This document shows, piece after piece, positions 1-21,739 of a stretch of DNA of 21,739 nucleotides. Position numbers and translations under genes: made by a program. Source of the stretch: a virus. The stretch is taken from positions 1 to 21,739 of the IMG/VR virus record IMGVR_UViG_3300005613_000460; one strand, 5' to 3'. The notes under the pieces are model-generated. The model was not told the origin of the DNA. It saw only the letters and a list, made by a program, of their open reading frames with translations, and did not search any database. Positions within the stretch are counted from its first letter, which is position 1. Each line of letters opens with the position of its first letter.

Positions 1-123
1 ACCAGTTAAGATGGATATGAACTGACTATTTGTCATATCCCCCTCAAAGTTTTTAACTGTCTCGTATTGGTCTATGGATATTCCATCCAACTGAACCTCT
101 TTATCTCCAAGTATTATCTTCAT
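1..123 (-). CDS. N-terminal part of a tail-chaperone-like protein, cut by the window edge
   Basis: A 41-codon open frame starts at an ATG (121-123) that overlaps the TGA of the upstream gene as ATGA, and it runs off the left edge without a stop. The visible protein begins MKIILGDKEVQL and continues with ISIDQYETVKNF and FISILTG. This opening resembles the start of the 229-residue protein at 19009-19698 (LGDK, then an I-x-Q-[YF] motif, then an I-x-SI stretch). The two may be distant paralogues of a tail-assembly-chaperone-like family. The tight overlap shows that it is cotranscribed with the methyltransferase cassette. Too little is visible to settle the function. Confidence 0.6.
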   Translation of the reverse strand, partial: MKIILGDKEVQLDGISIDQYETVKNFEGDMTNSQFISILTG

Positions 124-536
124 AATTCATTTATCATATTTTCAAACCATTTATCTATATCGTAATATCTGCTGTTAGTTCCTTTATCACTATAAAATTG
201 TCCTTTTATTTTATTTACAATCGGGTTATTATCAGTCCCCACAAACTCCTCTCTGTGTCCCCCTAAATAAGTTCCGTTGTCTTCCCTTGTCTTATTGTAT
301 TGAACGATACTACCATCATTTAACATATCATCACTCACCAATAAATTAGAGGGAAACCTACCTTTTTTATTATATTCTTTATAGTTCGGGTCTGTATAAT
401 CGTGAGCCTGTTTTAACACCCAATCTTCATTTATACTTTTTCGTGTTCTTGGTCTATCAAAGTTAATATTACTATCTGCTTCCACAAATGGTATCCTACA
501 ATCGTCAAACCAAGTTATACCTTTAGAATAATTCAC
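120..536 (-). CDS. Detached central (target-recognition-like) segment of a DNA methyltransferase, copy 1
   Basis: This 138-residue protein has no catalytic motif. It carries blocks that in intact phage class-beta DNA methyltransferases lie between the two catalytic halves: GITWFDDCRIPF (residues 6-17), GRFPSNLLVSDDMLNDG (59-75) and NSRYYDIDKWF (121-131). The section between the last two blocks differs from the copy at 21266-21652. The start is a GTG (534-536) lying inside the end of the upstream methyltransferase gene, whose TAA is at 523-525, giving a 14-base overlap and probable translational coupling. The neighbouring catalytic protein lacks exactly this segment, so the two probably act together, with this one contributing to DNA target recognition. 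That role is inferred from position in the family. A non-functional remnant is the alternative, but the frame is intact in both copies. Confidence 0.75.
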   Translation of the reverse strand: MNYSKGITWFDDCRIPFVEADSNINFDRPRTRKSINEDWVLKQAHDYTDPNYKEYNKKGRFPSNLLVSDDMLNDGSIVQYNKTREDNGTYLGGHREEFVGTDNNPIVNKIKGQFYSDKGTNSRYYDIDKWFENMINEL

Positions 537-623
537 CTTGAACTTTTATCTTTAATGTTTTTATGAGTTCCTCCCTACTGACCTGTAGTCGTTCCTCTGC
601 TATATCAAAATACTCCTCCGTAA
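499..623. repeat. Direct repeat, left copy (methyltransferase/segment junction)
   Basis: This stretch matches 21615-21739 in the same orientation at a constant offset of 21116 bases, with 3 mismatches in 125 bases by hand count. It covers the end of the methyltransferase gene and the start of the detached segment gene. Similarity continues, more patchily, to the left within the segment gene. Confidence 0.85.
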
Positions 624-1536
624 AATCTATTCCAATAAAGTTTCTCTTCAGTAATTTACAAGCTAGTCCTGTTGTTCCACTACCCATAAAAGGGTCTAAA
701 ACATAGTCCCCTTCCCTTGTAAATAAAGTTATAAGATAAGACATTAACTTAATCGGTTTAATGGTGGGGTGGGTGTTCTTACGAATGGTTGTTATTCCTT
801 TTTTATTTTTTTTCAATAGTATTAGTAAATTAAAATCATTTTCCGTTTCTTTCTCTTCACCACTTAATCCCATATCTTTTTCCTTCTTACTGGCTTTCGG
901 GGTCTGTATCAACGGATATGTTCGTTGTATATTCTCTGGCAATTTCTCAAAGTTTAATACCTTGTCTATATAAGATTTTTCCTTAAATGGTTTCATTCCC
1001 ACCACCACTATCTCTCTTGAAGGTTTCGGCTGAAAGCCCAATTTACTTCCTTCGTATTTCTTTGCTAAATCTGTTGATGGTGCTGTAATATCATATTCGT
1101 CTTTACGACCATGATAAGTCTTTTCTCCGTTATGGTATTCGGTATTTTTTATCGGTCTTTCTGCTTTACCAACAACCTCTCTATCCACCCCCAATCTTTT
1201 ATCTATGTGTTTAGAGGTGTCACCAGCCTTCGGGAACCCTGAATGGTATACCCATTCTATATTAGTAAAGGATAAATCAAACCCTGCCCCCTCTAAATCC
1301 CTACACAACCTCCATAATACATCACTTCGGGGTGCTGCCATAACACAGATAAAAGAACCCTCCTTAAGAACTCTAAAACTCTCCTTCCATATATCTACAT
1401 CAGGCAATACTTTATCCCACCCCTTATTCATAAATGAGTAGCCGTATGGTGGGTCAGTACATAACATATCCACAGAGTTATCTTTAATCTTTTTTAACTC
1501 TATCTTACTATCTCCGTTAAATAATATACTTTTCAT
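523..1536 (-). CDS. DNA adenine/cytosine-N methyltransferase, catalytic part lacking its central segment
   Basis: This 337-residue protein would transfer a methyl group from S-adenosylmethionine to an exocyclic amino group of DNA. Motif IV (DPPY) is at residues 28-31 and the AdoMet-binding motif I (DPFMGSGTTG) at 281-290, the class-beta order. THPTIKP (255-261) precedes motif I as usual. Between KPFKEKSYIDKVLN (182-195) and FEKLPENIQRTYP (196-208), where related phage enzymes carry a segment of 100 or more residues with the GRFPxNL block, this protein runs straight on. The missing segment is the next gene. The ATG overlaps the preceding stop as ATGA. Likely roles are protecting phage DNA from host restriction or marking it. 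Whether the base is N6-adenine or N4-cytosine cannot be told from DPPY alone. Confidence 0.9.
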   Translation of the reverse strand: MKSILFNGDSKIELKKIKDNSVDMLCTDPPYGYSFMNKGWDKVLPDVDIWKESFRVLKEGSFICVMAAPRSDVLWRLCRDLEGAGFDLSFTNIEWVYHSGFPKAGDTSKHIDKRLGVDREVVGKAERPIKNTEYHNGEKTYHGRKDEYDITAPSTDLAKKYEGSKLGFQPKPSREIVVVGMKPFKEKSYIDKVLNFEKLPENIQRTYPLIQTPKASKKEKDMGLSGEEKETENDFNLLILLKKNKKGITTIRKNTHPTIKPIKLMSYLITLFTREGDYVLDPFMGSGTTGLACKLLKRNFIGIDFTEEYFDIAEERLQVSREELIKTLKIKVQGELF

Positions 1537-2563: not shown

Positions 2564-2627
2564 ACCACTTATAAATTATATAACCCCCCACAAAATACGC
2601 TAGTGTCATTATTATAAAAAATTCCAT
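2550..2627 (-). CDS. 25-residue single-membrane-span peptide
   Basis: A very short gene filling the gap between the HNH endonuclease and the sigma-like factor. Its ATG (2625-2627) overlaps the HNH stop as TAATG, and its TGA lies 14 bases inside the sigma-like gene. The product, starting MEFFIIMTLAYFVGGY and ending KWYDTE, is one hydrophobic helix (residues about 3-19) with a short polar tail, so it would span the inner membrane once. The overlaps at both ends argue for a real translated unit. No function is evident. Confidence 0.55.
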   Translation of the reverse strand: MEFFIIMTLAYFVGGYIIYKWYDTE

Positions 2628-3043
2628 TAAGTCCAGGATATTAAATTTATCACATCATGTATAGTGGTTCTACTGACATTATATTCGTCAGCTAACCCCT
2701 TATAACTTATGTTCTCTGCGGCGTATCTTAATCTAATTTCTTTAGCCAACTCCATAGTTAATTTACAATATCTACGATGTCTATTGTTTTCCTTCGGTGT
2801 TGATAAAATCAAATTAGATAACCTGTTATCCGTTTTATCGTGATTAATGTGGTTTACCTCCAACCCTTCAGGTATCTCTCCATTATGGTACTCATAAATA
2901 AATCTATGACAGGTTCTATTCCTCCTATTGTCTTTGTCTTTATATTCAACAAAATACATATACCCTTCTTTTTGTTGATAAGTTTTTAATTGATAGTCGT
3001 GAGAGTTGTATATATTACCCTCTTTGTCTGCATAATATTCCAT
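2627..3043 (-). CDS. HNH homing-type endonuclease with C-terminal helix-turn-helix
   Basis: A 138-residue protein of the free-standing phage HNH family that cuts DNA. An N-terminal beta-rich part leads into RFIYEYHNGEIPEGLEVNH. The HNH core is at residues about 63-78, with H65, H68, N73 and N77 in VNHINHDKTDNRLSNL. The C-terminal 30 residues (ISYKGLADEYNVSRTTIHDV) form a resolvase-like helix-turn-helix of the kind that guides such enzymes to a target. It is the first gene after the leftward promoter at 3068-3098 and heads the leftward operon. It may be a selfish homing element or may serve phage DNA processing; the sequence does not decide. Confidence 0.9.
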   Translation of the reverse strand: MEYYADKEGNIYNSHDYQLKTYQQKEGYMYFVEYKDKDNRRNRTCHRFIYEYHNGEIPEGLEVNHINHDKTDNRLSNLILSTPKENNRHRRYCKLTMELAKEIRLRYAAENISYKGLADEYNVSRTTIHDVINLISWT

Positions 3044-18604: not shown

Positions 18605-19040
18605 AAGGAGGGGTGCAGTCGTTTAATAGTGACGGATAAACAATACTGATATTTGCAGTAGCCCCCACTACATCGTCACTAAACCTTTCCTTGAACGGAG
18701 TTATAGTAAAGGGGGTTATTATTTCTATATCGGGGTTATCTAAGTTCATATTGATATGACTAATCACTTGAAGTAGATATTCAGTACAATTACTCTGGTG
18801 CATTAATTCGTCTGTTGTTGTATCATAAGCCTGCGTCATAACAATAAGATTAACTGATAGTGTCCCCGTAATACCATTATGACTTATACTTACAGGGTTA
18901 ATAAATGCATAGGGGTATAAAGGTGGTTCCTCATCTTCGGGGGTATTTAAATCACTTAAATTTCCATACCCCACCTGATTAACAAAATAGTTATTTATAC
19001 AGGTTCTCTCAATTAAGTCTATTACTTCTATATAATTCAT
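18594..19040 (-). CDS. Probable tail terminator/completion protein
   Basis: A 148-residue protein with the size and alternating alpha/beta look of tail terminators (gpU-like): an N-terminal helix (YIEVIDLIERTCINNYFV), strands around GTLSVNLIVMTQAYDTTTDE, a central helix (TEYLLQVISHINMNLD) and a terminal strand (ATANISIVYPS). It directly precedes the gp10-like gene. Overlaps of 32 and 11 bases with neighbours show tight coupling. Function is inferred from fold impression and place in the operon. Confidence 0.5.
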   Translation of the reverse strand: MNYIEVIDLIERTCINNYFVNQVGYGNLSDLNTPEDEEPPLYPYAFINPVSISHNGITGTLSVNLIVMTQAYDTTTDELMHQSNCTEYLLQVISHINMNLDNPDIEIITPFTITPFKERFSDDVVGATANISIVYPSLLNDCTPPYAD

Positions 19041-19698
19041 TTAATTTTTTTCTTTCTTCTTCAGCTTTATCTTTTTTATACGCCAAAAAGTTTAAGGCTT
19101 GTATTATAGGTTTTTCTACTACTAAGTCCATTTTTATAAAATCTTCATCAGCCAGCGTAGCAATAAACGCATACCAATTATAAGCCGGGTCAACCTTTTC
19201 TTGTAGTTCTGTATCGTTTTTGCTAAATTCGTCATCTAATCCAAATAATTTTCTATAACTATTAAATATGTTTAATCTCCAGTTTAAATAATATTTTATC
19301 CCCCCGTAATAGTCATATAATAATTCGTCATCTTTTACTTCAGTATTATATAATGTATTGATTATGTTTTTAATATTGGCTTGAACCCCCCTACTTATAA
19401 AAACCTCCATATCTATAAAAGTCCCTACCTTTACATTTTTAATATCCACTAATCCGTCTTTGTTAAGGGGTGCGTCTTCAGGATATATTTTATCTATTAA
19501 AAAAGCGATGGATAACTCAATAGTTTTTTCTGGTATAATAAATGTGTCCTCATAAGGCACTTTCATTACTATACTCATTATTTTACGCCAGTTATTCGGT
19601 TCTCTAATATCCCAGTTAGCCAGTTCTGCAAATTGATTAATCGTTAACCTGTGGGGTACATCATATACTTTATCCCCTAAATGTAATTTATACTTCAT
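19009..19698 (-). CDS. Tail-assembly-chaperone-like protein
   Basis: A 229-residue, mainly helical protein. The N-terminus (LGDKVYDVPHRLTINQFAEL) followed by WRKIMSIVMKVPYED and EKTIELSIAFLIDKIYP is the pattern of small chaperone-like proteins encoded among tail genes. The C-terminal end is highly charged (KKDKAEEERKKLNELYRS). Its ATG overlaps the terminase stop as ATGA. The partial gene at 1-123 shares the opening motif. A terminase-linked or head-completion role is an alternative, since it sits directly behind the terminase. Confidence 0.5.
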   Translation of the reverse strand: MKYKLHLGDKVYDVPHRLTINQFAELANWDIREPNNWRKIMSIVMKVPYEDTFIIPEKTIELSIAFLIDKIYPEDAPLNKDGLVDIKNVKVGTFIDMEVFISRGVQANIKNIINTLYNTEVKDDELLYDYYGGIKYYLNWRLNIFNSYRKLFGLDDEFSKNDTELQEKVDPAYNWYAFIATLADEDFIKMDLVVEKPIIQALNFLAYKKDKAEEERKKLNELYRSNRLN

Positions 19699-21265: not shown

Positions 21266-21652
21266 TTAAATATTTTTTAATAAGTTATTAAACCATTTAT
21301 CTATATCGTAGTATCTACTATTACTTCCTTTATCATTTCTTGGTGTATATGTTCCACGCTGACTGAATATATCCCCACCACCATCGGTGTTATTCCATTT
21401 GTAGTTTATGTTTGCCTTTGCTTCAGTAATAATACCATCATTTAACATATCATCACTCACCAATAAATTGGAGGGGAACCTACCTTGAGTATTATATTCT
21501 TTAACATTAGGGTCTTCCCACTTTGTTCCCAAATCATATACCCATTCTTTTTTCTCCCTTAATCTTGGTCTATCAAAATTTATCTTACTATCCTCATCAA
21601 CAAAAGGAATACGACAATCGTCAAACCAAGTTATACCTTTAGAATAATTCAC
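21266..21652 (-). CDS. Detached central (target-recognition-like) segment of a DNA methyltransferase, copy 2
   Basis: A 128-residue protein homologous to the one at 120-536. Residues 1-18 are identical in the two copies, and GRFPSNLLVSDDMLNDG (57-73) and NSRYYDIDKWF (111-121) are shared. Residues about 74-106 differ in sequence and length from copy 1. The GTG start (21650-21652) overlaps the stop of the second methyltransferase gene (21639-21641) exactly as in copy 1. It lacks catalytic motifs. The likely role is as the recognition part of a two-piece enzyme. It is followed 4 bases later by the small terminase gene rather than by the chaperone-like gene found after copy 1. Confidence 0.75.
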   Translation of the reverse strand: MNYSKGITWFDDCRIPFVDEDSKINFDRPRLREKKEWVYDLGTKWEDPNVKEYNTQGRFPSNLLVSDDMLNDGIITEAKANINYKWNNTDGGGDIFSQRGTYTPRNDKGSNSRYYDIDKWFNNLLKNI

Positions 21653-21739
21653 CTTGAACCTTTATCTTTAATGTTTTTATGAGTTCCTCCCTACTGACCT
21701 GTAGTCGTTCCTCTGCTATGTTAAAATACTCCTCCGTAA
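21615..21739. repeat. Direct repeat, right copy (methyltransferase/segment junction)
   Basis: Right partner of 499-623. It runs to the window edge, so its full length is not visible. The sequences beyond each copy on the downstream side are unrelated (chaperone-like gene versus small terminase), so this is a duplicated cassette and not terminal redundancy. Confidence 0.85.
21639..21739 (-). CDS. C-terminal end of a second DNA methyltransferase, cut by the window edge
   Basis: The last 33 codons and stop of a gene entering from the right. The end IAEERLQVSREELI, then KTLKIKVQGELF, is the same as the end of the methyltransferase at 523-1536; only one residue differs across the visible stretch (EEYFN instead of EEYFD). 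The catalytic motifs lie outside the window, so whether this copy also lacks its central segment cannot be seen directly. The detached segment that follows suggests it does. Confidence 0.8.
   Translation of the reverse strand, partial: TEEYFNIAEERLQVSREELIKTLKIKVQGELF

Follow-up and report, generated by a model that had tools for sequence, protein, structure and literature searches.

The window is a 21,739-nucleotide stretch of viral DNA with two genes of interest at its left end. The catalytic gene M (523..1536, minus strand) encodes a 337-aa beta-class amino-methyltransferase that carries DPPY and FMGSG motifs and lacks a target-recognition (TRD) segment. Residues 22-315 match the Pfam family N6_N4_Mtase (PF01555) with an E-value of 7e-32, and the DPPY motif (residues 28-31) lies N-terminal to FMGSG (residues 283-287). 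Residues 195/196 read ...KSYIDKVLN followed directly by FEKLPENIQRTYP, with N195 and F196 contiguous. This junction (951..952, minus strand) is the point at which fused homologues carry a TRD block of about 100-235 residues. The first-pass annotation had described a catalytic chain without a recognition segment at this position, and both the open reading frame and the comparison with fused homologues bear this out. By definition, beta-class enzymes carry their TRD in the catalytic chain itself, between motifs VIII and X, and M departs from this definition in that its TRD is encoded separately. By its catalytic domain, M is assigned to the beta-class DNA amino-methyltransferases, with a holoenzyme layout that would depart from the class. 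Its predicted methyl acceptor is N6 of adenine or N4 of cytosine, as the class implies, and its activity and target motifs are likewise predictions. Upstream of M are an HNH endonuclease gene (2627-3043) and a sigma-factor-like gene (1964-2563), an order that is repeated in the nearest relative (L278).

TRD1 (120..536, minus strand) is a putative stand-alone specificity subunit of 138 aa with a GTG start, and blocks homologous to it lie inside fused enzymes. The protein begins (V/M)NYSKGITWFDDCRIPF, holds GRFPSNLL, and ends SRYYDIDKWFENMINEL. Its gene overlaps the end of M by exactly 14 bases (523..536, minus strand), with the M stop codon at 523-525 and the TRD1 GTG at 534-536, and this overlap is a putative site of translational coupling. 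Both the overlapping GTG start and the three sequence landmarks of the small gene had been noted before; the coordinates confirm the former and the 138-aa reading frame the latter. TRD1 contains three framework blocks that are near-invariant in 89 TRDs: block 1 (xYSKGITWFDDCRIP; 489..536, minus strand), block 2 (GRFPSNLLVSDDMLNDG; 312..362, minus strand), and block 3 (DKGTNSRYYDIDKWFENMINEL; 123..188, minus strand). Between them are variable cassette V1 (363..488, minus strand), in which most columns have an entropy of 2-3.9 bits, and variable cassette V2 (189..311, minus strand), which is shared with TRDs of other phages. TRD1 V1 is 71% identical to that of one L024 TRD whose V2 differs, and TRD1 V2 is 68-85% identical to those of six TRDs from other phages whose V1 cassettes are different. 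The protein has no match in Pfam, PHROGs, or NCBIfam. After TRD1 comes a partial open reading frame (1-123, minus strand; MKIILGDKEVQLDGISIDQYETVKNFEGD...) that looks similar, by eye, to the family of genes found behind the terminase (19009-19698), although it has no terminase in front of it.

The split arrangement was compared with single-chain enzymes using IMG/VR scans and a profile map of the catalytic halves (MN and MC) and the TRD blocks, with loci sharing an identical protein merged before counting. All split proteins measured have 0 residues between MN and MC, against 99-235 in full-length fused homologues of the sister clade, which contain the same blocks in the same order. IMG/VR contains 65 non-identical loci with a gapless catalytic gene, and stand-alone TRD genes are present in 63 of them; the contigs of the other two end inside M. 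No stand-alone TRD occurs in any of the 62 fused loci, there are no mixed loci, and 20 further fragments contain TRDs only. In a quick tree of conserved core columns, made without bootstrap, the split proteins form one side of a branch (SH-aLRT 96) and the fused clade adjoins it (97); a single split event is the simplest reading of this single clade. Because the arrangement recurs in 63 non-identical loci, it is not a product of chance. The comparison supports a real split in which the excised putative recognition segment is encoded by the neighboring gene. This had been proposed for the window from its sequence, together with the statement that intact enzymes carry the same blocks in the same order between the same flanks. 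Fused relatives do show that order in one chain, alignment to full-length methyltransferases places the blocks at this very point, and the proposal gains further from the single clade, the constant presence of TRDs, the co-divergence of the framework with M, and the common cassettes described below.

The 89 aligned TRDs consist of three short near-invariant blocks with two highly variable, sharply bounded stretches between them, V1 of about 39 residues and V2 of about 35. In Mantel tests on 51 loci, divergence between M proteins goes along with divergence of the TRD frameworks (r=0.80, p 0.0005) but not of V1 (r=0.04, p 0.19) and barely of V2 (r=0.09, p 0.03); the framework co-divergence could partly reflect linked inheritance. 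Among 6,903 TRD pairs, both cassettes are common in 8, V1 only in 91, and V2 only in 243, counts for which identical-protein loci were merged first, which lowers the number of pairs sharing both. V1 and V2 have evidently recombined independently of each other. TRDs of the same array have 86% identity in the framework, compared with about 21% in each cassette. Homologous cassettes have pN/pS ratios of 0.20 (V1) and 0.25 (V2) and the framework 0.17, for pairs picked by protein identity, which biases the ratios down. Since homologous cassettes are conserved, their variability reflects replacement by exchange rather than decay, and the ratios point to purifying selection on them.

These values also bear on the reading that a methyltransferase gene has broken up and left the small genes as inactive remnants, with M working alone or dead. 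A few TRDs lacking most of V2 (such as that of L013, 92 aa) and the absence of a confident fold for the TRD alone are compatible with it. The 127 complete stand-alone TRDs of 88-146 aa, the purifying selection, and the constant presence of these genes with M over a deep clade make it the least credible of the alternatives, with hardly any probability left to it.

Homologous cassettes occur beyond the split family as well. Split-family V2 cassettes recur in the V2 slot of single-chain enzymes, with up to 89% identity over 28 residues. Cross-slot matches are rarer in the split family, whereas fused enzymes often show them between V1 and V2. In the fused enzymes L009, L012, L014, and L016, PDLRDVGKKSKEAIGIDKLSYGQVQNAERK occurs with small changes in slot V0, V1, or V2, which suggests that a recognition cassette can change its slot inside a single chain. 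V0 is an optional segment of the catalytic chain that sometimes resembles a helix-turn-helix domain by eye (L061, L030, L092), and the M gene of L026 is interrupted in this region. Many M proteins have two further variable segments besides the excised TRD, and these could contribute to specificity. L054 and L108 instead encode 274-aa M proteins without any variable segment, so in these two only the small proteins would be left to determine specificity. The assignment of the central segment as the DNA-recognizing part draws on its position and variability and not on a characterized close relative.

Another reading gives the small proteins no part in specificity: they would associate with M as regulators or inhibitors, or serve as restriction-enzyme decoys. 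Their operon position would fit a regulator too, and their role in specificity is predicted from sequence. Their blocks, on the other hand, are collinear with the central segment of the fused enzymes, and cassettes are common to both slot for slot, which leaves a regulator or decoy role highly improbable.

Structure prediction lends no support to docking of the TRD onto M. AlphaFold2 yields no confident fold for the small protein alone (89-row alignment; pLDDT 48.5, pTM 0.22). For the fused homologue L111 the core is modeled well (pTM 0.66), with the TRD region under 50 and no docking geometry, and Foldseek places a fused homologue model closest to CcrM, M.RsrI, and M.BceJIV. The sole PDB sequence match to the TRD profile, an antifreeze protein repeat (E 0.0012), lies mostly over V1 and was rejected as chance. 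Fusion of M and TRD by frameshift was rejected because the TRD would land at the C terminus and not in its native place, and protein trans-splicing by an intein was rejected because neither junction carries extra sequence.

Each locus contains one to five TRD genes, counts that are lower bounds because many contigs are short. M overlaps the first TRD by 4, 23, 1, 14, or 20 bases in 64 of 66 cases, and in the two exceptions, L061 and L109, an HNH-like gene intervenes (L061:4397-4885, L109:5815-6276). Neighboring TRD genes overlap one another by 14, 8, 4, or 11 bases, with a 14-base TRD-TRD overlap in 21 relatives. A 31-kb contig that breaks off within its one M gene carries five TRDs in a row, and no other M was found in that contig. 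The TRD genes usually lie directly upstream of the terminase, and a 4- or 8-base overlap commonly joins the last of them to the start of a gene for the terminase large subunit. The terminases at this position start with clearly different sequences; those of the relatives were named by likeness to the window's annotated terminase and by eye. In some loci TRDs precede M or follow the terminase. Many loci have another beta-class methyltransferase gene, different from M, immediately before it (L004:741-1562, L006:1705-2757). Locus L071 contains a small gene, similar by eye to a class-I methyltransferase, between two TRD genes (L071:5393-5992), and no M was found in its 32-kb contig. The 92-residue TRD at L013:1224-1499 lacks V2 and is the sole small protein of its locus; it may be a dead copy or a naturally occurring mutant with half of the specificity. 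The arrays also qualify the earlier picture of one catalytic and one recognition piece: the split itself stands, and the idea of a single partner is too narrow for arrays that reach five different recognition genes and suggest a multi-specific system.

Tandem copies might serve as a silent reservoir, with one TRD per cell joining M at a time and recombination rebuilding the active gene from the extra copies, like phase-variable hsdS. The strong cassette shuffling, the homology for exchange offered by the conserved blocks, and the position of some TRD copies away from M, for example after the terminase, all agree with such a reservoir. Silent cassettes lack starts, whereas every copy in the arrays is an intact gene with an overlapping start codon of its own and the copies are under purifying selection; a reservoir is considered improbable.

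TRD2 is a second putative stand-alone specificity subunit at the right end of the window (21266..21652, minus strand; 128 aa, GTG start), and terminase genes follow it. It is 51% identical to TRD1, with the same framework and a different V1 and V2. It overlaps by 14 bases the 3′ end of a second catalytic gene, M′ (21639..21739, minus strand), which is cut by the contig end and retains the last 32 codons and the stop. Over these 32 residues M′ and M have 97% protein identity. The earlier account of the window as a single pair was correct for the TRD1 pair and missed both this second TRD, read from 21652 to 21266, and the tandem arrays of the relatives.

The two contig ends carry almost the same DNA where M ends and the TRD begins (21639-21739 vs 523-625), and this repeat probably broke the assembly. 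Because the M-TRD1 join lies in sequence that is repeated at the other contig end, it could be a chimera made in assembly; two loci, a strain mixture, and a misjoin are indistinguishable from this contig. The real locus would then be M-TRD2-terminase, with TRD1 after the terminase as in L031. This rearrangement would agree with the near identity of the two ends, the resemblance of the partial gene after TRD1 to the family following the terminase, and the placement of a TRD after the terminase in relatives. The nearest relative contig, G008, has an M-TRD unit before a terminase, and another M begins at its contig end, where HNH, sigma factor, two small genes, and M follow in the order seen at the window's left end. 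G008 thus has an M start in each of the two gene contexts of the window, which favors two real M loci without proving them, and a chimera is rated as unlikely, if more plausible than any of the alternatives above. It concerns the window alone, is compatible with the preferred explanation, and leaves the system itself unaffected, as that is found in 63 loci.

The explanation best fitting these data is a heteromeric orphan anti-restriction methyltransferase, in which one catalytic subunit would work with exchangeable specificity subunits in trans; this is considered likely. M would be the catalytic core that binds AdoMet and transfers the methyl group, having lost its internal target-recognition segment, and the small protein would be that former segment, now a free subunit. 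The conserved framework blocks may dock onto M while the hypervariable V1 and V2 cassettes read DNA, and the overlapping stop and start codons may couple M and TRD synthesis. Tandem TRDs sharing one M would give a phage several methylation specificities at once, and recombination between the conserved blocks would swap V1, V2, and whole TRD genes and renew specificities. The likely purpose would be protection of progeny DNA from diverse host restriction enzymes, by genes that head the terminase region. Physical assembly in trans and the anti-restriction role are, like activity, base type, and target motifs, deduced from gene content and alignment. The broader proposal is rated somewhat lower and still favored: a tandem array of stand-alone two-cassette TRDs (up to five or more), each assembling in trans, would share one TRD-less M, one phage would methylate several sequences at once, cassettes would be shuffled between phages, and the whole would represent a new class of DNA modification system.

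Type I HsdM and HsdS are similarly separate catalytic and specificity polypeptides from overlapping genes, the EcoKI hsdM/hsdS overlap being 1 base (PMC3510504), and phase-variable Type I loci contain several hsdS genes (PMC3874165, PMC7394358). Type I systems also have two variable recognition segments between conserved blocks, shuffled by recombination. M here is beta-class and not of the HsdM family: it matches N6_N4_Mtase and CcrM-like models, and no HsdM model is among the reported matches. None of 89 small proteins matches any Pfam family at E 0.01, HsdS (Methylase_S) included, and Type I membership was rejected on the lack of an HsdS match. The several intact tandem TRD genes and the origin from a single-chain orphan enzyme differ from Type I as well. 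No candidate for an HsdR nuclease was found among the ten proteins of the incomplete window contig scanned against PHROGs.

M.AquI and M.EcoHK31I are two-polypeptide cytosine-5 methyltransferases (PMC3404938). They too are normally single-chain enzymes naturally divided between two genes, but they are C5 enzymes with one partner each, whereas M has an internal segment cut out with its flanks joined directly, and up to five different partners exist. Single-chain beta-class phage orphan methyltransferases (the fused sister clade L009-L016 and L111-L115; PHROG 67) have the same core, framework blocks, and cassette slots, but carry one recognition segment per enzyme, inside the chain between motifs VIII and X. 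The Bacillus phages SPR, phi3T, and rho11 encode multispecific cytosine methyltransferases with several TRDs in one chain. These likewise combine one phage catalytic core with several recognition segments, each of which is a separate protein in the present system. Domain movement (DOMO) of TRD sequences is known from the specificity subunits of Type I and IIG systems (PMC3077401); there too, recognition sequences are exchanged between alleles and occasionally slots, whereas here the TRD genes are stand-alone phage genes. In a cryoconite study (PMC7468147), orphan methyltransferases rank with the most variable genes of phages, and its passages on methyltransferases describe no such split.

Neither a split M nor a stand-alone TRD was found in 50,697 GenBank phage records, and a TRD scan of 84,980 species genomes returned three loci, all fused. 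Word searches of open-access papers, which other wordings and subscription papers may escape, found no such system described. The small proteins scanned have no Pfam, PHROG, or NCBIfam match and so probably escape annotation. If the proposal is true, this is a plug-in phage methyltransferase with specificity supplied by small separate proteins, and that specificity would go unseen in any prediction of phage methylation based solely on the catalytic gene. It would show how phages can cheaply, in genetic terms, keep up with the many restriction systems of their hosts. The growth of arrays and the shuffling of cassettes would be explained, and a methylation tool that is modular by nature would become available. 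The carriers are a group of uncultivated phages in which one enzyme could mark phage DNA at several sequences. The portal protein is nearest to those of Nonlabens phages, at 28% identity, a likeness that weakly hints at a Bacteroidota host.
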